Translations under genes and position numbers: made by a program
Source: a virus
IMG/VR virus record: IMGVR_UViG_3300045110_000463
Location: 1-40,647 of that record
Length of the DNA: 40,647 bases
Reading direction: 5' to 3' (one strand)
Shown: piece by piece, positions 1,833 through 33,487 of the stretch
How positions within the stretch are numbered: the first letter of the stretch is position 1
How the letters are laid out: each line of letters opens with the position of its first letter
Notes under the pieces: generated by a model
The model's database searches: none
Seen by the model: only the letters and a program-made list of their open reading frames with translations
What the model was told of the DNA's origin: nothing

Positions 1833-2593
1833 GCGCTCAGCCTGATCCGCCGGCTGTGGTGCTCGTCGCACACGTGGTCGTGACCCCACCGCTCTCCACA
1901 CTCAGGGCAGTAGCCGTGCTGGTTGTGGCACTCAAGCTGGTCCTGGGCGACGGCGACCGCGGTCGCGCACATACGGCCGTAGGCCGCGTTCATCTGCTCC
2001 CACCACTCGTCCGACGTCCACTGACGCTGGAAGCGATCGAGACTGCCGGTCACGCGGTTGAGCACGATGTATTCGAACGTTGGCCAGTCGCCGGTCTCCT
2101 CGACGACAGCCCACGTGTACAGCATGGGCTGCCACACTTCAGCTTGAGCGCGCTCTTGCGACCACACGCCGCGGGTGGTCTTGAAGTCGTACACCGTAGG
2201 TGTACCGCCCTCGCCCTCAGCGTCGTAGAGATCGAGGGCGCCAATGATGGGCGCGCCCAGCTCCACGTTGGTGTCGAGGGCGAAGCCTCGTTCGGGCACT
2301 CCGTGCAGGTCGAGGTCGAACACCTGCTCGATGAGCCTGAGGCCCATACCGGTGAGCTGACGCTGCACCACAGCCCCCTGAGCGGCCAGGGTGAGGGATT
2401 CGGCCTTCCAGGCCGCGCGGAAGGCGCGCTCGCCGTCCTGGCCGTTGTAGTGCGCCTCCAGCCCCATGTGGACGGCCTTGCCGAAGCACATCGCCTCGGT
2501 CGGCTCGATAGCGACGCCGTCGACGTACCGCGCGCGGAATTCTGAGCGGCACTGATCGAAGAGCATGAAGCGCGTCGCGCTCCAGTGCGGCAT
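1829..2593 (-). CDS. RecB/Cas4-like PD-(D/E)XK nuclease (254 aa)
   Basis: Motifs of the RecB/Cas4/PDDEXK_1 family are in order: FGKAVH (His42), GALDLYD (Asp121), VYDFKTTR (Asp136, Lys138) and QAEVWQPMLY (Gln150, Tyr159). A cysteine cluster near the C-terminus (C222, C229, C232, C242) may hold zinc or an iron-sulphur cluster, as in Cas4 and AddB relatives. Expected activity is DNA exonuclease or endonuclease, serving replication or recombination beside the SSB-like protein and prim-pol. I prefer ATG 2593, 11 bases after the previous stop, over a GTG at 2632 that would overlap that gene. Confidence 0.8.
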   Translation of the reverse strand: MPHWSATRFMLFDQCRSEFRARYVDGVAIEPTEAMCFGKAVHMGLEAHYNGQDGERAFRAAWKAESLTLAAQGAVVQRQLTGMGLRLIEQVFDLDLHGVPERGFALDTNVELGAPIIGALDLYDAEGEGGTPTVYDFKTTRGVWSQERAQAEVWQPMLYTWAVVEETGDWPTFEYIVLNRVTGSLDRFQRQWTSDEWWEQMNAAYGRMCATAVAVAQDQLECHNQHGYCPECGERWGHDHVCDEHHSRRIRLSA

Positions 2594-2604
2594 GACGATG
2601 GGCT

Positions 2605-2793
2605 TCACGGTACGGTGGTCGGTCTCGACCACTTCGTCTGAACGAGCTCTGCCTGCGTATCGGCCAAGTCCACGATATCGAAGTCGTCGTCGGCAAGAGC
2701 CATGCGGTGGACATACGCCGTTGACAGCAGCTCGAGCGCCTCGGCACAGCGCTCAGTCGCCGCGATCAGCCGCTCAGCCTGTTCAGTCGTCAT
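2605..2793 (-). CDS. Hypothetical helical protein (62 aa)
   Basis: ATG 2793 overlaps the preceding stop (ATGA). The N-terminal half is a helix (EQAERLIAATERCAEALELLS) and the rest is acidic. There are no recognisable motifs. It lies in the replication operon between the attenuated 80-aa gene and the RecB-like nuclease. Confidence 0.55.
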   Translation of the reverse strand: MTTEQAERLIAATERCAEALELLSTAYVHRMALADDDFDIVDLADTQAELVQTKWSRPTTVP

Positions 2794-3032
2794 CGCGCCT
2801 CTGCCTTCTTCGCCTCAGTGGCGATTCGCTTCCAGCCGGACGGCGCCTGATCAGCCAGAATCGAGTACCACGTGCCCTCGACGGGGTCCCGAACATTCAG
2901 CCATCCGTGCGCCCGAGCCCACAGGATTTGAGGTGGCCAAAAACTCAGACTCCCATTCCCACCTATATATATGTGGGAGCCGGAGCCTGAGTTTTTTTGG
3001 GAGTGGCGCACGCCCTCGGGCTCAGTCGTCAT
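2790..3032 (-). CDS. Hypothetical protein with terminator hairpin in its 5' coding part (80 aa)
   Basis: The start overlaps the end of the prim-pol gene by 11 bases. The C-terminal two thirds look protein-like (ARAHGWLNVRDPVEGTWY), while the first 30 codons are dominated by a long inverted repeat with flanking A and T runs. The repeat may be an inserted or retained terminator that became coding, or true initiation may lie further downstream. Function unknown. Confidence 0.5.
   Translation of the reverse strand: MTTEPEGVRHSQKNSGSGSHIYIGGNGSLSFWPPQILWARAHGWLNVRDPVEGTWYSILADQAPSGWKRIATEAKKAEAR
2939..2998. terminator. Bidirectional intrinsic-terminator-like hairpin
   Basis: AAAAACTCAG (2939-2948) pairs with CTGAGTTTTT (2987-2996), with inner pairing of CCCAC (2958-2962) to GTGGG (2973-2977) around an AT-rich loop. 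Seven T follow the stem on the + strand, and five T follow on the minus strand. On the minus strand it would attenuate expression of genes behind prim-pol. Confidence 0.65.
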
Positions 3033-8268: not shown

Positions 8269-8439
8269 ATGTCCGAAAAACCGGGGCCGCTGCCATCCCG
8301 CCCGCCCGAAGACGCCATCCGCGAGCTGGTCGCGCTGTTACGTACTGGTTACAAAGCTTTGTTAGAGACACGCGGAGATACTGCAAGCAGCACCACTAAG
8401 CGTGTAGACTCTGAGGATGCTAGCGACCCAGCCGCTTGA
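8269..8439 (+). CDS. Small hypothetical protein overlapping integrase start (56 aa)
   Basis: ATG 8269 opens a 56-residue frame (EKPGPLPSRPPEDAIRELV, then a Ser/Thr-rich tail) that runs 23 bases into the integrase gene in another frame. Amino-acid texture is protein-like and the overlap suggests coupling, as for a recombination directionality factor, but no motif supports that. The gene contains the dyad ACAAAGCTTTGT (8351-8362). No strong ribosome site. Confidence 0.4.
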   Translation: MSEKPGPLPSRPPEDAIRELVALLRTGYKALLETRGDTASSTTKRVDSEDASDPAA

Positions 8440-10030
8440 TGGGCGGCGCATCCTGCGCGGCGTACGTGTCTCGACACCGCATCAAGTCGAGAATTGGTCG
8501 GTCCTCGCGCAGGAAAAAGACTTCGACCTGGTGCTCACCGCGTGGGGCGCCACCATCGTGCCGTTCAACGAGCAGCAGGTTTCAGGGCGCGACCTGGCCA
8601 AACGCAAGGTCCTGCTTGCCCAGCTCGAACGTCTCGAACGTGGCGAGGCCGACGGCATCGCCTACTACGACATCAAGCGGCTGACGCGTAACGAGCTCGG
8701 CATCGACGGCGGCATCATCGCCAAGCAATTGATCCGCCTGCGCGCGGTGCTGGTCACCTACCGCAAGATCTTCGAACTCTGGAAAGAGTCGGACCTGAAG
8801 GACTTCCAGTTCGAATGCATGCTCGCGGGTATCGACGTTCGTGGCATTCGCGACACCTTCTGGCGCGGTCTGTTTCAACGCGCCGATAGCGAGGCGTTTC
8901 AGATGGGCAAGCCGCCGATCGGCTACACCAACCGCAAAGAAACTGCGCTCAACTCGAAGGGCCGCGAAGTGGTGCGCAAGATCCTCGAGAAGGATCCCGC
9001 CCAGGCCGACATGATGACGCGCATGATCGCCCTGCTGGACGAGTGCCACAGTCTCGGCGAGGTCTGCCGACAGCTCAACCAGGCTGGGATGCTTCTCACC
9101 GCGCGCGGCGAGCAGCGCGGTGAGAAGATCGTGCCCTGGAAGCCGAACAACCTTCGACGCATGCTCGAGAACACGCTCTACGCCGGCCAGTGGTATTTCG
9201 GTCGCAATAGCAAACGCGAGTCAGCAGTCTGGGAAGGTCGCGAGCATCGCCGTTTTCATCATGAGGTGCCAGAGTTGGCGTACTGGTCCGCAGCTGACGC
9301 GATCCGCTGGCGGCGCAAGTTCCACCCAACAGGCGCCTGGGTCCCGCAGTCTCGTGCTCGCAAGTACAGCCGCGGGCTGATTGGCGTGCTCGCCTGCGTG
9401 ACCTGTGGACGGCCGATGGTCAGCGCCGGCCAGTTGGGTTACCAGTGTTCGAGCCAGCGCAACGGCCTCTGCCCGGCCGCTCAGGTACTCAGCGAGCGTG
9501 GCGCCCTCATTGCGCTGCGCGAGATTCTGCCAGCCTTGCTGCCGTCAGCCGAAGCGCTCGAAGCCGAGAACGCCCGTCAATCCCAGGCCGATGAGCGCGT
9601 CAGCGGGCTCGAATCGAAGTTGGTAGTGCTCCAGGCTCAGCAGGAAGAAGACACACAACAGTGGATGCGGATCCGCGGCGTCAAACCGCTGAGCATCACG
9701 CGTGCGTTGCAGGAGCGCGAAGAGCAGATGGACCTGACGCGTGCCCAACTCGAGGAGGCGCGTGCCGACGCGATCGCTAATCAGAAAGGGTTTGTCGGCG
9801 CGCGCGAGCTACTCGACCACTCGGTCGAGATCATTGACAAGCTAACGCCGTACCAGCAAGCGCGCGTCTATCGGCTGCTCGTGACTGACGTACGAGTGCG
9901 CGGAGTAGGTATCGCGCGCGGCCGACGGTGGACCATTGACTCGTACACGCCACTCCTCACCGAAGCCACGCTTAGCGATCCTTCTGCTGGCAGTTTGTGG
10001 CCTAAACTATCCTTAGCCATGAGCGCCTGA
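8417..10030 (+). CDS. int: Large serine recombinase (integrase), 537 aa
   Basis: The N-terminal resolvase fold has RVS (Ser19, likely nucleophile), VSGRDLAKR (Arg58) and YYDIKRLTRN (Arg88, Arg91). A recombinase domain follows (QMGKPPIGY through LYAGQWYFG). A zinc ribbon has C327, C330, C344 and C352 (ACVTCGRP, QCSSQRNGLC), and a coiled coil at about 395-460 precedes the C-terminus, as expected for a large serine integrase. It should join attP to attB without host factors, giving lysogeny. ATG 8417 is the only start before the first conserved strand. The residues before Ser19 differ from the usual AIYARVS. Confidence 0.9.
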   Translation: MLATQPLDGRRILRGVRVSTPHQVENWSVLAQEKDFDLVLTAWGATIVPFNEQQVSGRDLAKRKVLLAQLERLERGEADGIAYYDIKRLTRNELGIDGGIIAKQLIRLRAVLVTYRKIFELWKESDLKDFQFECMLAGIDVRGIRDTFWRGLFQRADSEAFQMGKPPIGYTNRKETALNSKGREVVRKILEKDPAQADMMTRMIALLDECHSLGEVCRQLNQAGMLLTARGEQRGEKIVPWKPNNLRRMLENTLYAGQWYFGRNSKRESAVWEGREHRRFHHEVPELAYWSAADAIRWRRKFHPTGAWVPQSRARKYSRGLIGVLACVTCGRPMVSAGQLGYQCSSQRNGLCPAAQVLSERGALIALREILPALLPSAEALEAENARQSQADERVSGLESKLVVLQAQQEEDTQQWMRIRGVKPLSITRALQEREEQMDLTRAQLEEARADAIANQKGFVGARELLDHSVEIIDKLTPYQQARVYRLLVTDVRVRGVGIARGRRWTIDSYTPLLTEATLSDPSAGSLWPKLSLAMSA

Positions 10031-24295: not shown

Positions 24296-25542
24296 CTAAC
24301 CCTCGCCTCCAGTGGCCGCTTTTTGCTGCAGAGCGAAGAAAGGATAGCGACTTGCTTTCGTGGATTGCTGCCGATTCACGGGGTTAGGAACGGCCCAAGC
24401 AAACCTCGCAACGATTCGCAACGCGACCATGTCTTGCTGCATGAGATTGAATTGAATAACTGGCGGGCTACCGTTATCGGTAATAACACCAGTATCAAAC
24501 ATCTCCATACTGATATCGTCCCTGACGGCGAGCATCGACTGGTCCCATTCGCCACCGATCATCGAGTAGTTCGCGGCGCCTGTAGCGAAGCCCGACAGAC
24601 CAGCATTGCTGAAGATGACCGGCTCGCCATACAGGCTGCCAACATTGGGCGATTCGGTCGGTGACGTATCGGGGTAGTACAGCATGCCCTTGGTCGTATC
24701 GCGCAGACCGCGGAGCTTGGCCTTGACCTGACGACGTGCCCAGAACCCGGTCACGTCGAAGCCGTCAGCTTCCACAGTCGCCATGGCGTTGTTTACGTCG
24801 TCGAGATAGTCGACTGCTGACGCACCAGCCAGGATGACGTTGCCGGCCGCGGCCGCGCTGGCCACGATGCTGGTGGGGAACGTAGCTGGCGCGTTGACGC
24901 CAAAGAAGATGGCTTCGTCTAAAGCAACGCCGAATGCTTCCGTAACCTTCGGTTTGATTTCGGTCCAGAAGTCGAAGTCCATGTCATCGAGGAGGTTCTT
25001 TGCGATCGGGACGATCACAGCCATCTCTTCAGCGTTGAGGTAGACGTTGTCCCACTGCAGACTAGTCGTCTGCTTCATGCCGATATCGCGTGCATCGAGG
25101 CTGGCACCAGCCACCCAGTAGGCGATCGGAAGCTGGCTGAGGACCGGGATGCGCTGCTGGGCGCGCTTCATGCGTACGTGCGGCATGAGCTGCAACGCCG
25201 CGGACTTCACTTCGATGGACTGGACGATGCTGCGCTGAACCTCTTCTGGGATGCACGTTGGTCGAACACTTTCATGCTCGCGTGGACTATCTCATCATCG
25301 TGACCGAAGTCGCGAGCTGGGCGCTCTAGCCGGTAATTAAGGGGACTGCACCCCTCCGGTAGTCTCTGAACCTTCCGTCGGTGTACCGACGGCTTGGCTG
25401 CGGATTGCCATACGCCTGGCGACGCTTAGGGTTCCCGCAATTCACCCAGTGTTTCACTCGCCTGATCTCAGGCGACGTGCCCCCATAGGTCGAGGGGACC
25501 TGAGCCTGGTATGGCTCGTGTGGCGATCGAGTTGTATGGAAT
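24296..25542 (-). CDS. Major capsid protein, HK97 fold, split by a group I intron (334 aa spliced)
   Basis: Coding exons are complement(25498-25542) and complement(24296-25255). Spliced product: 15 residues reading (M)[14 protein letters not shown] joined to [19 protein letters not shown] and then the HK97-type body ([56 protein letters not shown]). The IPEEV motif near residue 17 is normal for this family and is lost if GTG 25210 is used as start. Exon 1 has no ATG, GTG or TTG after an in-frame TAG; ATT 25542, eight bases behind AAAGGG, is the apparent start. Unspliced reading stops 24 codons in. Confidence 0.8.
25256..25497 (-). ncRNA. Group I self-splicing intron (242 nt) in the capsid gene
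   Basis: Core elements on the minus strand, in order: P AATTGCGGGAA (25432-25442), Q AATCCGCAGCCAAGC (25392-25406), R GTTCAGAGACTA (25360-25371) and S GAGATAGTCC (25284-25293). P4 (TGCGGG/TCCGCA) and P7 (GACTA/TAGTC) pair, and P6, P8 and a GAAA-loop P9 (25263-25280) form. P1 joins exon end CTCAGGT to the guide GCCTGAG (25467-25473), with the T at 25498 in a U-G pair. The intron ends in G (25256); exact ends fit the reading frame uniquely. No ORF inside. Confidence 0.93.
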
Positions 25543-25583
25543 CGGAGTGGCCCTTTCCTTCTAAGAATGGGGCCGAGGCCCTC

Positions 25584-26357
25584 TCAGCCCGAACTGTTGT
25601 TGTGTTCTCTGGGTGTTGGCAGGTCGTAGAACCCGCGCAAAATGCTTGAGACTGTCTGATCGCTTGTTGAGCCACCACTCGTCCCTGGGATGAGCTCCGG
25701 CTCGGCATACCCGCCCCGCGCTTCACTCAGGATCTGTTTGCGGAACGCGGCGTTTTTTCTGAGTCTGGCCTCCGCGGCTTTTTCGCCTTCGGCCTTCCAG
25801 TGCTTTTCGAGTGCCTTCAGGCTCTCACTCACAACCAACTTGCGGCCCGCCAGACCTACCCCTGCCCCGTCGAGTTTGGTGATCCGTTCCTGCTCACTCT
25901 TCGGGAGGGCCAGGAAGATCGGATCGATCGTCACCCGGTCGTGCTCTGAACCGACATTGGTGACGAACTGCTCGAGTTGAACATTGCCCATCTGGGCTTG
26001 TTCGGTCTTGCGCTCTTCCTCGGCGTATGCCCACGGGTCCTTGTCGCGGAGTTCGCGACGGGCTCGGGCGGCAGCTTCAGAAGCTCGCTTGGCCTCACGA
26101 CGATCAGTTTCGGCCTGTACGCGACGCTCTAATTCCGTCTGTGACAGCACCACCTTGTCTGGTTCGGCACTCGTCTCGGTCTCCTGACTCGGTTCGGTCT
26201 CCTCCCGGCCACGAGGCTGACGCCTCGTGATGCGCTGCCACCAGTTGGGTGACGATTCAGAAGAAGACTCGGAAGCCTGCTCAGAAGTCTGGGCCGATGC
26301 CTCGGCGTCAGGACTGGGTGATGGTTCCGCAGATGAAATATTTGGTTGTTCCTGCAT
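25584..26357 (-). CDS. Scaffold-like protein (257 aa)
   Basis: The protein is rich in Glu, Gln, Ser and Arg, with long helices (LSQTELERRVQAETDRREAKRAS, LKALEKHWKAEGEKAAEARL), and disordered Ser/Pro at the N-terminus. Location directly before the capsid gene and overall composition are classic for a capsid scaffold. It is not proven that it is a scaffold rather than an internal core protein. Stop is 41 bases before the capsid start. Confidence 0.65.
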   Translation of the reverse strand: MQEQPNISSAEPSPSPDAEASAQTSEQASESSSESSPNWWQRITRRQPRGREETEPSQETETSAEPDKVVLSQTELERRVQAETDRREAKRASEAAARARRELRDKDPWAYAEEERKTEQAQMGNVQLEQFVTNVGSEHDRVTIDPIFLALPKSEQERITKLDGAGVGLAGRKLVVSESLKALEKHWKAEGEKAAEARLRKNAAFRKQILSEARGGYAEPELIPGTSGGSTSDQTVSSILRGFYDLPTPREHNNSSG

Positions 26358-28150: not shown

Positions 28151-31100
28151 TCATGGGCGTGGTACTGGCGATGCGCCGGATCGCACCGGCCCGCCCGAGC
28201 TAGACACCGGTCCACCAGGGCGGGGTGACGGTGACGGCATAGGTGTAGCGGCCTCCGCCGCGGGTGTGGACGCCGACGCCGACGATGGGACCGCGGCCTG
28301 AGCACGTGCTTCCTTCACACGCGCCTCGATCGACTGTTCGAACATGCCCGGCACCATCGTCTCGCGGATCACTGAACGCGTCTTGTCATAGACAGCGTTG
28401 ATCATCTTGGCCTTCTCAGGATCGGGCGCCTTCTCGTACTCGGAGCTGCCGATCAGGAGGTCGAGGAACGTCTTCGACAGGTAGCCGCTCATCTGCTGGT
28501 AGTGGCGCTGCTGTTCCTCGGTCATCTTTGTGTCCTGGCCCAGGACGTTGGCCGTTCCGCCCACTAAACTCGGTTGGACCCCGTAGGACGGATTCTTTGC
28601 CAGTCGCTCCAGTTCGACCTCGACCTTATCCGTGGTCGCCGCACTCGGGTTGAACACGTTGATGAGTGCTTCAGCGCCGCTGATCGGACGACGGATGGGC
28701 TCACCCCACGCGTTGAGCTCGCTGCGTACCTGCCCCTGCGTGAACGGATTGCCGGCCATGATGCCTTCGATCGGATTCTGCGGATCGCGCAGGACATCGT
28801 CCGTCGCTCGCGCGAACCAGCGCAGAATCCCAGGATTGACGTTCGTCGCCTGGCGCGTCGCGAACTTGTTGATGGCATCACCTGGATCGGTTGCCTTGCC
28901 ATTGACGATGTCGAGGGCGTCGGCGAGTTGGGTAGTCCACTGCGTGTCGAGCAATCCGTCGGCGGCCGCGGCGCCCAACTGCACGCCGAGCATGCCGATG
29001 CTGTCGGGATTTGAAATCTGACCTTTCTTCCATGCGTCGGCCACGCTCGCCGCAGCACCGAACATGGTCGAGTACGGCTGCAGCGGCAGGTAACTCACCC
29101 ACGACCCATCAGTGGGATTGCGGAACGAGTACGGTTGCTTGCCTTCACGACGGAAAGCGTCGCGTTCCGTGGGATCGCTCGGTGTCTTGCCCGTCAGGTT
29201 GCCATCGAACGCTTGCTTAGCCAAGACGCCCCACAGCGTTGTGCCGATGGTCGCGCGACTCATGCGGTCAGCCAGATCGCCAGCTCCACGCTCCTGTAGC
29301 GCTGCGCGCCCTTCCTTGCTCGCAAAGTCTTTCACGATGCCGGCAGCCCCGACCGGCGAGCGCTCGAGTACATAGTTCATCAGGTTGAGCGGCGTTTTGA
29401 CGAAGGGCAGCAAGAATCGTCCTACGGCCGTGTCGCCACGGAACTGGTTGATCTTGTTGGCGAACGCGTTCTCTTGTTGGAAGACGCGGTACGTCCCGGT
29501 TTGAGCCGCCTGATCGAGCATGTCTTCAGTGGGCCGCTTGAGCAACTCCGCAATGCGATCGGTGAGCACTTCACCCGTGTGGCCTTCCTGGCGCGCGGTC
29601 CGCACGGCCAGTCCGTGCAGGGCTCCACCTTCATTGACCGTGCGGAAGAAGTCGTCTGACGCTGCCAGCGCGCGACCAGGGATGTTGATCGGATTCTTGA
29701 GTCCGCCGCCGAGCGCTTCGCCGATTGGTCCAGAGAGTGCCGCACCCGTGAGTTCGTTAGCCGCGGTCGCTCGATCAGAGATACCGAGTGCCATGCGCCG
29801 CAAACCTTGACTGACGCCGTCGCCCAGCGAATTGGCCATGCCTACGTATTCGGCTGGGAATTCCTGAATGTAGCGCTGGCGTGGCCCGGTATCGCCGAGC
29901 ATCTTCCGCGCGAGCGGATCGAAGCCTGACGCAACTGCACCTTCAACGGGTGCGGTGATGCCTGCAATCGTGTTCGACAACCCGTTGCGGACGTGGGTCA
30001 GCGGATTCGACAACAGGCTGAAGTACCACACGGCCATGGCCTTGTCCTTGAAGGTGTAGCCGTAGGCTTTCTTGGCGAAGTCGGCGATGCTGGCGGGATC
30101 GGTGAAGTCGGCCTCGTCGCGCACGTGGCTCATGAATTCGTCGGGCAGCATCTTCCACCGCTTGGCCATGTCGCTCAGGGTTTCGTCGTAGCGGAACGAA
30201 TCCAGCGACCGACCCGCTCGCGGCTCCAATCCTGCCACGGTTTCTTGCAGAGCACGCTGGCCAGCGATTTCACGGACCACGTCGCGGGTAGCGTTCAGGT
30301 CGTCGGGCGCCTTCTGGAGCGCGAGTTGTGCTTGCCGCAGCCGTGCGGCTTGATCGTCGAATGCCTGCTTCAGCACGTACGCCGTCTTGGCATTGGCGGG
30401 ATCGTCGAGCTTGAGGACGGCACGCACACGGTCAGCGCTCGTCTTGCCGGCCGCGGCGAGGTCCTCGAGCACGCCGGGCTCGATGGTGCCGCTCCGCGCG
30501 GCCTGGGCCGCAGTACTCGTCTCATCCCACGCGCGGCCAATGATGCGCTGCACGCTGTCGGGCACATAGTTCGGCAGCTTGACGCCACCCACACCGGGCA
30601 CAGCGGGCTCGCCCGTATCGACGAGTTGGCCCACTCGCGCGTTGCTAGGGCGGTACACATCACCGCGCGCTGTTCCTGCAGCTCCACCCGTCTCGAGCGG
30701 TGTCCCAGCGCCACCGCCTGAGGCTCGTGGTGCGCGCAGGCCGGCGTTGAGGTCCTCGACGACTTGTGCGGCGAGCTGCGGTGTGGTGGTTGTTGGTGCG
30801 AGGACCTGGGCGCGCGCGGCAGCGCGTGGGTTTTCCTCCATCCAGCGGACCACGGTCTGGGCGATGCTCGAGGCGGGCGCATTCGTCGCATTCGCCCACT
30901 CGCGAATAGGACCAGCGAGCTCTTCGGGATAACCCTTGAGCTGACCGAGCGCATCCTTCAGCATGCCCTCGCCCGTCTTGATCCCACCCGGCGCGCCGGG
31001 TCCCGCGGACATCGCGACCGATTCGCCGATCCGCATATCGCGCAACGCCTGAACGACCTCGGCGTCCGTCGGTTCCCCGCCGCCCAGCGCCAGCTTGCCT

Positions 31101-33487
31101 GTGCGAGCGAGACTCCGCGCCGCGTCCATCGCTTCAGGTGTGGCGTTCTTGGCCAGGTCTTCGTCACTCACGAGCAGTGGTCCGCGCGCCATACCGAGCG
31201 CTCCGCCGAGGACCGGCGCGTTCGCGATCGCTTCGCGGAGTGGTGCACCTGGCGAGAGCGGCCGATTACTTGTGTCGCCAATCCGATCGAAGATCGTCGG
31301 CTGTGGTGGCGCGATCATGCCCGCAGGCTGTCCGGTGAGTCGTGCGGAGTCCTGGGGGCCGTTACCTGTACCGAGCGGGTTGGTGAGTACGTCGGACGGG
31401 ATGGGCTGCTGCTGCGCTGTCTGGATACCGCGCATGTCATCGCCGAATGCTGGTTGGCGCGAGGTATCCCCAGCGCCGTAGCGCGTGGCCTGATCCTGAT
31501 GTAGTTGCTGGGCGTAAGCCGTGGCCGCCTCGGGCGACGAGAAGATCCCCAAGTGCTTGCCCGTGCGCTGATATAGGGCGATCGCCTCCTGGTTGGACAG
31601 GATGCGGCCGTCGTCGGACACCGTCGGGATCAGGACCTCGCCGTCATCAGTGCCGACCGAGATCGAGCGCACGGTACTGATCGAACCGTCGGAATTCCTT
31701 ACAACTGGGCGAGCGTTCAGATCGATATTGCCCGGCTCGATAGGCGTCTGCTCGCCCACACTGGCGATCTTCTGATCGAAGTCGTGAACTTCGGGTGTGG
31801 ACTCCAGGCTGAGCGCACCCTTGAGCGGCTCGATGACCCTCCGCTGAAAGATGTTGTCGCCGCCCGTGAGACTATCGACCATGGAGTCCTTGGCGCGACC
31901 CAGCCAGCCCAGCGGATTGGTGTCCTGATCGGCCAGACTCGGACTGGCCACCTTGGGGTTATCGGCGAGCAGGCCGCCCTGAACCGGACCCATGATCGCG
32001 GTCATCTGCTCGGGCGTCATCCATTCCGAACCACCCTTCAGGTCGAGCCCGGAGCGACCGACGTGGAAGCGATTGGTGTCGGGATCCCACCCGTCCGCGG
32101 TGAAGTAGTGACCACCCGTCTGCGAGCTGTATGTGGAGATGGTGACGGGGTTACCAGTCCTGGCCTCATTGGCGAATGTGCCCCAGTCGGCGCCCGATAC
32201 CAGCTTCGTCGGCACCCCCATCTTGTCCATGAGCGCTTTTTCGGAGCCCAGGCCGGCCATCCCCTGGCTGCTCGTCCAGCCGACCGTCCTGGCGAGGTCG
32301 GTCGCTTCGCGGAGGCTCGGATTCCGCCCGAATCTTTGAGCAAATCGGACAGCGGCAGCAGGGCCACATGCAGCGTATGCCTCGTCATTGGTGAGCTGGC
32401 TGTCGCCGAACTGGCTGATGTCGCGGCCTGAGGCCGCTTGCTGCGCCCATCCGCCAGTCTGGCCGAGCGCCTGTTCGGCCGCGGTCGTTGGTCGAGGTCC
32501 TGGGGCTTGGCCGCTAAGAATGGTGTTGACGTAGCGCTGCGTCTCTTCGAACGGCGGGACACCACCGTACCGATCGACGGCGCCCGCGCCAGCGTTGTAG
32601 GCGCTCAATGCCTTGGCGTAATCGCCGCCGTACTTGCCCAGGTTGGACTTCATCAGGTTCGCGGCGTAGTCGAGGCTGGCATAGGGGTCCGTCGGATCCA
32701 CGCCAGGGTGGTATTGGGGCACGATCTGTGCGATGCCCGTTGCGCCCGCAGGGCTCTTGGCAGAAGGGTTGAAACCCGACTCTTGCTGAATCTGGCGGGA
32801 AAAGATGTCAGGATCTACGCCCGCTCGCAATGCCGCTTGTCGGGCGTAGTCCTGCAGAGGCCCGCCGGGTACCGGCACCCCACTCGCGGAGGCAGCGGTG
32901 GGCGCCGGCCCGGCTGGCTTTTCTGGTGGCTGGAAGCGATCGGCGAACGTCTGTACGTCCGCGCCGGCTGCCGCCGCGGCGCCGAGTGCCTGGCCGTAGG
33001 CCGACTGTGCATCTGTCGCACGACTCAGGCCGCTGCCGAACTTATCGGCGAAGGTCTGTACATCCCCGCCAGCTTGACTGATGGCGCCCAGCGCCTGCCC
33101 AAAGACTTGCGTCTGCCAGTCGTCCGGAGCCGCGATAGGCGACGGTGTGGGAGGCGAGGGCGCGACAGGTGCCGCAGCCGGCGCCACCGGTCCTGGCGGA
33201 GCCGGTGGCGCGGCCAGCGACGGCTCGGGAGACGGTGGTGCCTCCGCAGGGGGAACCTCCGGAGTGGGAGCCGGCTCAGGAGCCGCGGGCTCTAAAGGCG
33301 GTGCCGGCGCTGCCGGCTGTTGATATTCAGTGGCCGCCCACGCCCCGATGCGATTCAGATCGGCGAGCCGGTCATTGTGCGCCTGGGTGAGGTCCAGCGC
33401 ATGGATCTTCCGATCGGCCTCTTCCTGGAAGAGCTGGTTGTGCCAATCGTCGTACCCCTGCTCGTCGACATCCGGGAGCATGCTCAT
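28151..33487 (-). CDS. Giant internal virion protein with SLT transglycosylase and C39-like peptidase domains (1778 aa)
   Basis: Residues 1-60 are helical, followed by a Pro/Ala linker. Two copies of a YGQALGA...GADVQTFADRF repeat lie at about 127-183. A lytic transglycosylase domain (212-325) has Glu236 in QQESGFNPSAKSPAGATG. A C39-like peptidase region (365-480) has Cys374 in AACGPAAAV and His460 in GGHYFTADGWD. A segment NARPVVRNSDGSIS is common in podovirus ejection proteins, and LSNPLTHVRNGLSN near 1200 in large polyvalent ones. It should be carried in the head, injected, and open the cell wall. A two-enzyme wall-opening tool seems likely. Confidence 0.8.
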   Translation of the reverse strand: MSMLPDVDEQGYDDWHNQLFQEEADRKIHALDLTQAHNDRLADLNRIGAWAATEYQQPAAPAPPLEPAAPEPAPTPEVPPAEAPPSPEPSLAAPPAPPGPVAPAAAPVAPSPPTPSPIAAPDDWQTQVFGQALGAISQAGGDVQTFADKFGSGLSRATDAQSAYGQALGAAAAAGADVQTFADRFQPPEKPAGPAPTAASASGVPVPGGPLQDYARQAALRAGVDPDIFSRQIQQESGFNPSAKSPAGATGIAQIVPQYHPGVDPTDPYASLDYAANLMKSNLGKYGGDYAKALSAYNAGAGAVDRYGGVPPFEETQRYVNTILSGQAPGPRPTTAAEQALGQTGGWAQQAASGRDISQFGDSQLTNDEAYAACGPAAAVRFAQRFGRNPSLREATDLARTVGWTSSQGMAGLGSEKALMDKMGVPTKLVSGADWGTFANEARTGNPVTISTYSSQTGGHYFTADGWDPDTNRFHVGRSGLDLKGGSEWMTPEQMTAIMGPVQGGLLADNPKVASPSLADQDTNPLGWLGRAKDSMVDSLTGGDNIFQRRVIEPLKGALSLESTPEVHDFDQKIASVGEQTPIEPGNIDLNARPVVRNSDGSISTVRSISVGTDDGEVLIPTVSDDGRILSNQEAIALYQRTGKHLGIFSSPEAATAYAQQLHQDQATRYGAGDTSRQPAFGDDMRGIQTAQQQPIPSDVLTNPLGTGNGPQDSARLTGQPAGMIAPPQPTIFDRIGDTSNRPLSPGAPLREAIANAPVLGGALGMARGPLLVSDEDLAKNATPEAMDAARSLARTGKLALGGGEPTDAEVVQALRDMRIGESVAMSAGPGAPGGIKTGEGMLKDALGQLKGYPEELAGPIREWANATNAPASSIAQTVVRWMEENPRAAARAQVLAPTTTTPQLAAQVVEDLNAGLRAPRASGGGAGTPLETGGAAGTARGDVYRPSNARVGQLVDTGEPAVPGVGGVKLPNYVPDSVQRIIGRAWDETSTAAQAARSGTIEPGVLEDLAAAGKTSADRVRAVLKLDDPANAKTAYVLKQAFDDQAARLRQAQLALQKAPDDLNATRDVVREIAGQRALQETVAGLEPRAGRSLDSFRYDETLSDMAKRWKMLPDEFMSHVRDEADFTDPASIADFAKKAYGYTFKDKAMAVWYFSLLSNPLTHVRNGLSNTIAGITAPVEGAVASGFDPLARKMLGDTGPRQRYIQEFPAEYVGMANSLGDGVSQGLRRMALGISDRATAANELTGAALSGPIGEALGGGLKNPINIPGRALAASDDFFRTVNEGGALHGLAVRTARQEGHTGEVLTDRIAELLKRPTEDMLDQAAQTGTYRVFQQENAFANKINQFRGDTAVGRFLLPFVKTPLNLMNYVLERSPVGAAGIVKDFASKEGRAALQERGAGDLADRMSRATIGTTLWGVLAKQAFDGNLTGKTPSDPTERDAFRREGKQPYSFRNPTDGSWVSYLPLQPYSTMFGAAASVADAWKKGQISNPDSIGMLGVQLGAAAADGLLDTQWTTQLADALDIVNGKATDPGDAINKFATRQATNVNPGILRWFARATDDVLRDPQNPIEGIMAGNPFTQGQVRSELNAWGEPIRRPISGAEALINVFNPSAATTDKVEVELERLAKNPSYGVQPSLVGGTANVLGQDTKMTEEQQRHYQQMSGYLSKTFLDLLIGSSEYEKAPDPEKAKMINAVYDKTRSVIRETMVPGMFEQSIEARVKEARAQAAVPSSASASTPAAEAATPMPSPSPRPGGPVSSSGGPVRSGASPVPRP

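Follow-up and report, generated by a model that had tools for sequence, protein, structure and literature searches.

The major capsid gene of an uncultured soil-type phage is interrupted near its 5′ end by a short structured element. The gene lies on the minus strand of IMG/VR record IMGVR_UViG_3300045110_000463, and the whole 40,647-nt stretch that was analyzed is called the window here. The locus raises the question of what this element is, where exactly it would leave the transcript, and how it could have entered a capsid gene. Our main reading, to which we assign a probability of roughly 80%, is that of a group I self-splicing intron without an ORF, moved by collaborative homing via a NUMOD4-HNH gene that related phages carry directly upstream of their capsid gene.

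A genome scan for the host found only distant Firmicutes matches (38 to 41%). The window encodes a large serine recombinase (8417 to 10030, plus strand; phrog_95 integrase, PF07508/PF00239), and therefore the phage is probably temperate. On the minus strand, positions 28151 to 33487 encode a 1,778-aa protein with a transglycosylase SLT domain that matches internal virion or tail lytic proteins.

A group I intron in the major capsid gene

The RNA of the window's capsid gene matched the Rfam group I intron model RF00028 at positions 25263 to 25512 (minus strand) with a score of 66.4 bits (E = 7.7e-15), exceeding the gathering score of 50 bits. This was the sole Rfam match above the cutoff in the window, and no further group I intron reached the cutoff outside the capsid gene. 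The RF00028 search had been proposed in a preliminary description of this DNA, which also located the P, Q, R, and S core elements on the minus strand of 25200 to 25560; these were found at the positions that it gave. Its central claim of a group I intron within the major capsid gene held as well, since the RF00028 match was accompanied by a PF05065 protein upon joining of the exons (E = 2e-27 for the capsid joined at the junction of that description). The window capsid gene thus holds a real group I intron.

Joined, the two exons specify a major capsid protein of 335 aa with the HK97 fold. Exon 1 (25493 to 25542, minus strand) is 50 nt long, ends with two nucleotides of a Leu codon, and is conserved in about 70 intronless relatives. 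Exon 2 (24296 to 25253, minus strand) carries PF05065 and matches the phrog_10 major head protein. When the exons were joined at the corrected junction given below, 977 phage records contained homologues of the protein, of which those in Arthrobacter phages came closest (43% identity). Exon 2 had 66 relatives in IMG/VR. The lineage set used for comparison consisted of 74 distinct capsid genes, 70 of them intronless.

Three related introns were found. Those of L087 (the same contig as L172; IMGVR 3300045242_000244) and L156 (3300049178_000024) occupy the insertion site of the window (site A), and that of L045 (the same contig as L086; 3300027874_000321) is 7 nt downstream. The RF00028 scores were 70.8 bits for L087/L172 and 63.0 bits for L156. 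The L045 intron, the most divergent of the four, scored under the Rfam detection level, and an RF00028 scan of the whole records of 50 relatives, including L045, gave no match at E ≤ 0.001. This means that Rfam misses the most divergent member of the intron family.

The fold of the window intron RNA was more stable than 200 out of 200 shuffled sequences (z = −3.35), and nine helices are common to the four introns (P1, P2, P3, P4, P6a, P7, P7.1, P8, and P9; all coordinates are on the minus strand). Compensatory changes were found in P3, P6a, P7.1, P8, and P9, with pairing kept throughout. A good example is P3, where the 5′ strand CTGGGTG (25443 to 25449) pairs with CGCCCAG (25317 to 25323) and a TA>CG>GC compensatory change runs across the four introns. 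Such changes also occur in the P6a hairpin CCGTCGG/CCGACGG (25375 to 25392), in P7.1 and its nested hairpin (25330 to 25359, all four introns), and in the P8 hairpin with its UUCG loop (25298 to 25315), which has one mismatch in the window. The P4-P5 domain spans 25398 to 25440, with P4 formed by TTGCGG (25435 to 25440) and CCGCAG (25398 to 25403). P7, formed by GACTA (25360 to 25364) and TAGTC (25285 to 25289) in the region of the G-binding site, is unchanged in all four introns, and the P9 hairpin CGAGCAT-GAAA-GTGTTCG (25263 to 25280) keeps its pairs in the four introns apart from one mismatch in L156. Of the P1-to-P9 fold drawn earlier, P4, P7, P8, and the GAAA-capped P9 pair as proposed, but P1 does not.

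The U·G at P1 (U25493 with GGGG) and ωG25254 are kept in L087 and L156, and L045 has the same features at its own site. With its P3-to-P9 core, P/Q/R/S elements, ωG, and U·G at P1, the window intron is like other RF00028 introns, with no structural difference, and guanosine-initiated self-splicing can be inferred. The P7.1 insert between P7 and the 3′ strand of P3 resembles that of subgroup IA introns, to which the window intron may belong. The open reading frame list contained no endonuclease-sized ORF within the 239-nt intron, in agreement with its earlier description as ORF-less, and so it is not a classical mobile group I intron.

Splice sites and the start of the capsid gene

The best intron placement appears to be 25254 to 25492 on the minus strand (239 nt), with P1 formed by CCCU at the end of exon 1 (25493 to 25496) and GGGG within 25480 to 25484. 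This P1 is short (4 to 5 bp), with its wobble U at 25493, and the CCCU exon end pairing with the intron GGGG is identical in all four introns. With cuts after U25493 (5′ site) and G25254 (3′ site), PLIPE is recovered exactly in both the window and L087. Equivalent cuts also restore PLIPE in L156, as read from the sequence, and the L045 intron at its own site restores SPLIPEDV. The three introns of this insertion site (window, L087, and L156) all retain G25254. At the junction, the joined window protein agrees with about 70 intronless relatives; nearly all intronless capsids of the lineage read PYNS....PG..PLIPE. In the site A intron alleles (window, L087, and L156), the site is preceded by the Pro codon CCC, compared to CCG or CCA in every other tabulated allele, which suggests that the P1-pairing exon base travels together with the intron.

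According to this placement, the exon-end CCCU would pair with the intron GGGG as P1, with the U·G at the cut. An exogenous guanosine would attack after U25493, and the freed exon 1 would then attack after ωG25254. The exons would be joined as ...PGSG-PL-IPEEV..., giving the spliced junction GGTCCCCT|CATCCC.

P2 (CGCCTG-AGAT-CAGGCG, 25459 to 25474) is fully paired in all four introns, in L156 through a different sequence, and is present in the minimum-energy fold of the window intron. It includes an in-frame TGA (25468 to 25470), at which translation of the unspliced window RNA from exon 1 stops (coding nucleotide 75). In all four introns, translation of the unspliced RNA ends in or ahead of P2. 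A stop ahead of the core is the usual arrangement and shields the intron core from ribosomes. Because of this in-frame stop, full-length capsid protein would come from spliced RNA only.

Two other accounts of the element bear on these boundaries and on its function. The preliminary description had placed the intron at 25256 to 25497 (242 nt), with CTCAGGT/GCCTGAG as P1. In the window, that placement is in frame, has a U·G at the 5′ site, and ends with a G, but the related introns make it very improbable. Its P1 forms 7/7 pairs in the window and fails in L087, L156, and L045 (the three related introns have 4/7, 2/7, and 2/7 pairs), whereas P2, which uses the same strand, holds; GCCTGAG belongs to the 5′ half of this conserved P2. 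The proposed terminal G at 25256 is a T in L156, and the resulting junction, GSG-C-IPE, loses the PL that is present in nearly all intronless relatives. The start of the intron would therefore lie 5 nt, and its end 2 nt, further 3′ than first described. The 3′ end drawn by Rfam at 25263 was rejected as a splice site because it is out of frame. The other account holds that this is a real group I relic that splices inefficiently, with the capsid protein translated from a downstream GTG at 25210. The ATT that we take as the start of the window capsid gene (25540 to 25542, minus strand) is weak, the GTG is available, and P8 has its mismatch. However, the exon 1 protein is conserved over about 70 relatives with mostly synonymous nucleotide change, separate alleles share an intact, conserved intron core, and the exact in-frame junction is kept in every intron allele. 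This leaves the relic with hardly any probability.

The capsid starts in the 74 related contigs were GTG (21), ACG (17), ATT (17), ATG (11), TTG (5), ATC (2), and CTG (1). The start codon was AUG or a one-letter variant of AUG in 74/74, and the codon preceding it was an AUG-like variant in merely 4/74. For the 37 capsid genes with an ACG, ATT, ATC, or CTG start, 36 had no in-frame ATG, GTG, or TTG from the upstream stop to the start codon. Standard and nonstandard starts were exchanged 16 times on the capsid tree. In half of this phage lineage, translation of the most abundant protein seems to begin at codons of the ACG or AUU type.

Horizontal spread and the upstream NUMOD4-HNH gene

The intron is present in 4 of the 74 lineage capsids, a distribution that takes four changes to explain on the capsid tree (74 rows). 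Intron-motif scans of IMG/VR matched only L087, L045/L086, and L156/L175; one over-strict pattern had no match in IMG/VR. The capsids nearest to that of the window (L111 and L112, 95% aa identity) are intronless, and the collections may omit closer records. Between the window and L087, identity is 92% for the intron compared to 72.5% for exon 2, a difference that indicates horizontal spread. The patchy distribution likewise indicates, at the level of sequence comparison, that the intron moves horizontally between phages.

A freestanding gene with NUMOD4 and HNH_3 domains lies directly upstream of the capsid gene in the intron-bearing L087 and L045, and relatives of this gene are found upstream of the capsid gene in about 10 intronless contigs. 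L156 has the intron and lacks the gene. The gene is also absent from the window, where the corresponding position (25543 to 25586, minus strand) consists of the upstream gene's stop codon and an intergenic stretch. Among the Pfam-scanned ORFs of the window there was no homing-type endonuclease, and the L087 enzyme had no match in the window. Besides NUMOD4 and HNH_3, the L045 endonuclease (1905 to 2873, minus strand) has a second HNH/HNH_5 domain at its C-terminus, which the other two scanned enzymes do not have. The HNH-like matches located upstream of the capsid gene in L157 (85 to 393) and L158 (2604 to 2912) are on the plus strand, opposite to all others.

Three close pairs of contigs differ by the NUMOD4-HNH gene: L172/L173, with the intron, and L143/L142 and L144/L147, which are intronless. 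In the three pairs, the upstream gene was 96.5 to 97.6% identical until 17 to 36 nt ahead of the point at which the capsid gene starts in the partner without the NUMOD4-HNH gene. Exon 1 then differed at 14 to 16 of 54 positions. This tract ended with a mismatch at coding nucleotide 54 in each pair, and the 200 nt after it held only 5 to 9 mismatches (P of about 1e-6 or below for each). The intron sites are at coding nucleotides 50 and 57, beside the tract end at nucleotide 54. In L172/L173, the endonuclease gene, exon 1, and the intron form one divergent block with flanks that are about 94 to 97% identical. Seven close pairs without the NUMOD4-HNH gene were used as controls; 2/7 had a mild exon 1 excess (P of 0.01 to 0.04), 1/7 had the opposite, and the remaining pairs showed nothing significant. 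The window and L112 had 14/54 versus 16/250 mismatches (P = 1e-4), a weaker contrast than in the three pairs, and no divergent exon 1 tract was visible between the window and L111. A divergent tract ending at the insertion site is the footprint expected of collaborative homing. Because two of the three co-converted pairs are intronless, only L172/L173 shows the intron and the endonuclease moving together.

In the mechanism that we propose, the candidate NUMOD4-HNH enzyme would cut the intronless capsid gene in trans beside the intron insertion site, probably near nucleotides 50 to 57. Repair would then copy the endonuclease gene, exon 1, and the intron, where present, as one unit. The window intron would have arrived by such homing and would now stand without the endonuclease gene.

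A different possibility is that the intron is static, or that reverse splicing or simple recombination spread it, and that the HNH genes home alone, making the association incidental. The window and L045 introns have a common guide, GGGGGCAC, and their insertion sites, each preceded by CCCU, are separated by 7 nt, as RNA-guided reverse splicing would give; the window and L156 also have no endonuclease gene. This possibility is nevertheless unlikely. The endonuclease gene, exon 1, and intron of L172/L173 diverge as a single block, and the block in the endonuclease-only pairs likewise stops beside the intron site. With collaborative homing as the preferred reading, the two neighboring sites with one guide could reflect either reverse splicing or homing that was imprecise. 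It is possible, and we put this forward only tentatively, that two related ORF-less introns 7 nt apart and one HNH nuclease share the capsid target, the second site having been reached by reverse splicing. If so, intronless, endonuclease-only, intron-only, and combined alleles would all coexist naturally, and the putative HNH cut site would lie between both intron sites.

Comparison with known systems and significance

An ORF-less intron in a capsid gene had been regarded in the preliminary description as unusual. A capsid-gene intron has been published for mycobacteriophage LittleE (Cluster J), with splicing demonstrated by RT-PCR and N-terminal sequencing, and that paper cites the lactococcal phage Tuc2009 for another (PMC3706429). 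Like the window, LittleE has a group I-type intron in the major capsid gene, with U as the last exon base and G as the last intron base. At 820 bp and with a LAGLIDADG-like ORF of its own, the LittleE intron differs from that of the window, which has 239 nt and no ORF and belongs to another phage lineage. More widely, self-splicing introns have been documented in many phage genes (PMC11878797).

Collaborative homing is known for the psbA intron of S-PM2 and the freestanding F-CphI (PMC6083498), and a precedent is also found in PMC3984707. As in L087 and L045, the freestanding endonuclease gene of S-PM2 adjoins the intron-bearing gene, F-CphI targeting the intronless allele, and the S-PM2 intron core is about 77% identical to that of the window over 80 nt. 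F-CphI is an Endo VII-type enzyme acting at psbA, whereas the candidate here is a NUMOD4-HNH enzyme predicted to cleave the major capsid gene. In Synechococcus phage S-SRM01 (L105, 207559 to 210692), the psbA region is split by an intron that is 78.5% identical to the window core over 135 nt, and two endonuclease genes are nearby, one of them annotated between the psbA pieces. It is debated whether collaborative homing leads towards mobile introns or is what endonuclease turnover leaves behind, the latter being an alternative origin of loci of this type (PMC10448857).

Gene finders would truncate this capsid gene, an annotation error that the placement given here corrects. Intron-bearing alleles occur in a gene requiring very high expression. 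The capsid intron itself is of a known kind; the newer part is the population-level footprint ascribed to an HNH enzyme beside the capsid intron site. Collaborative homing has so far been defined from very few laboratory phages. Four allele states and sharp co-conversion footprints within one lineage make the order of events testable.
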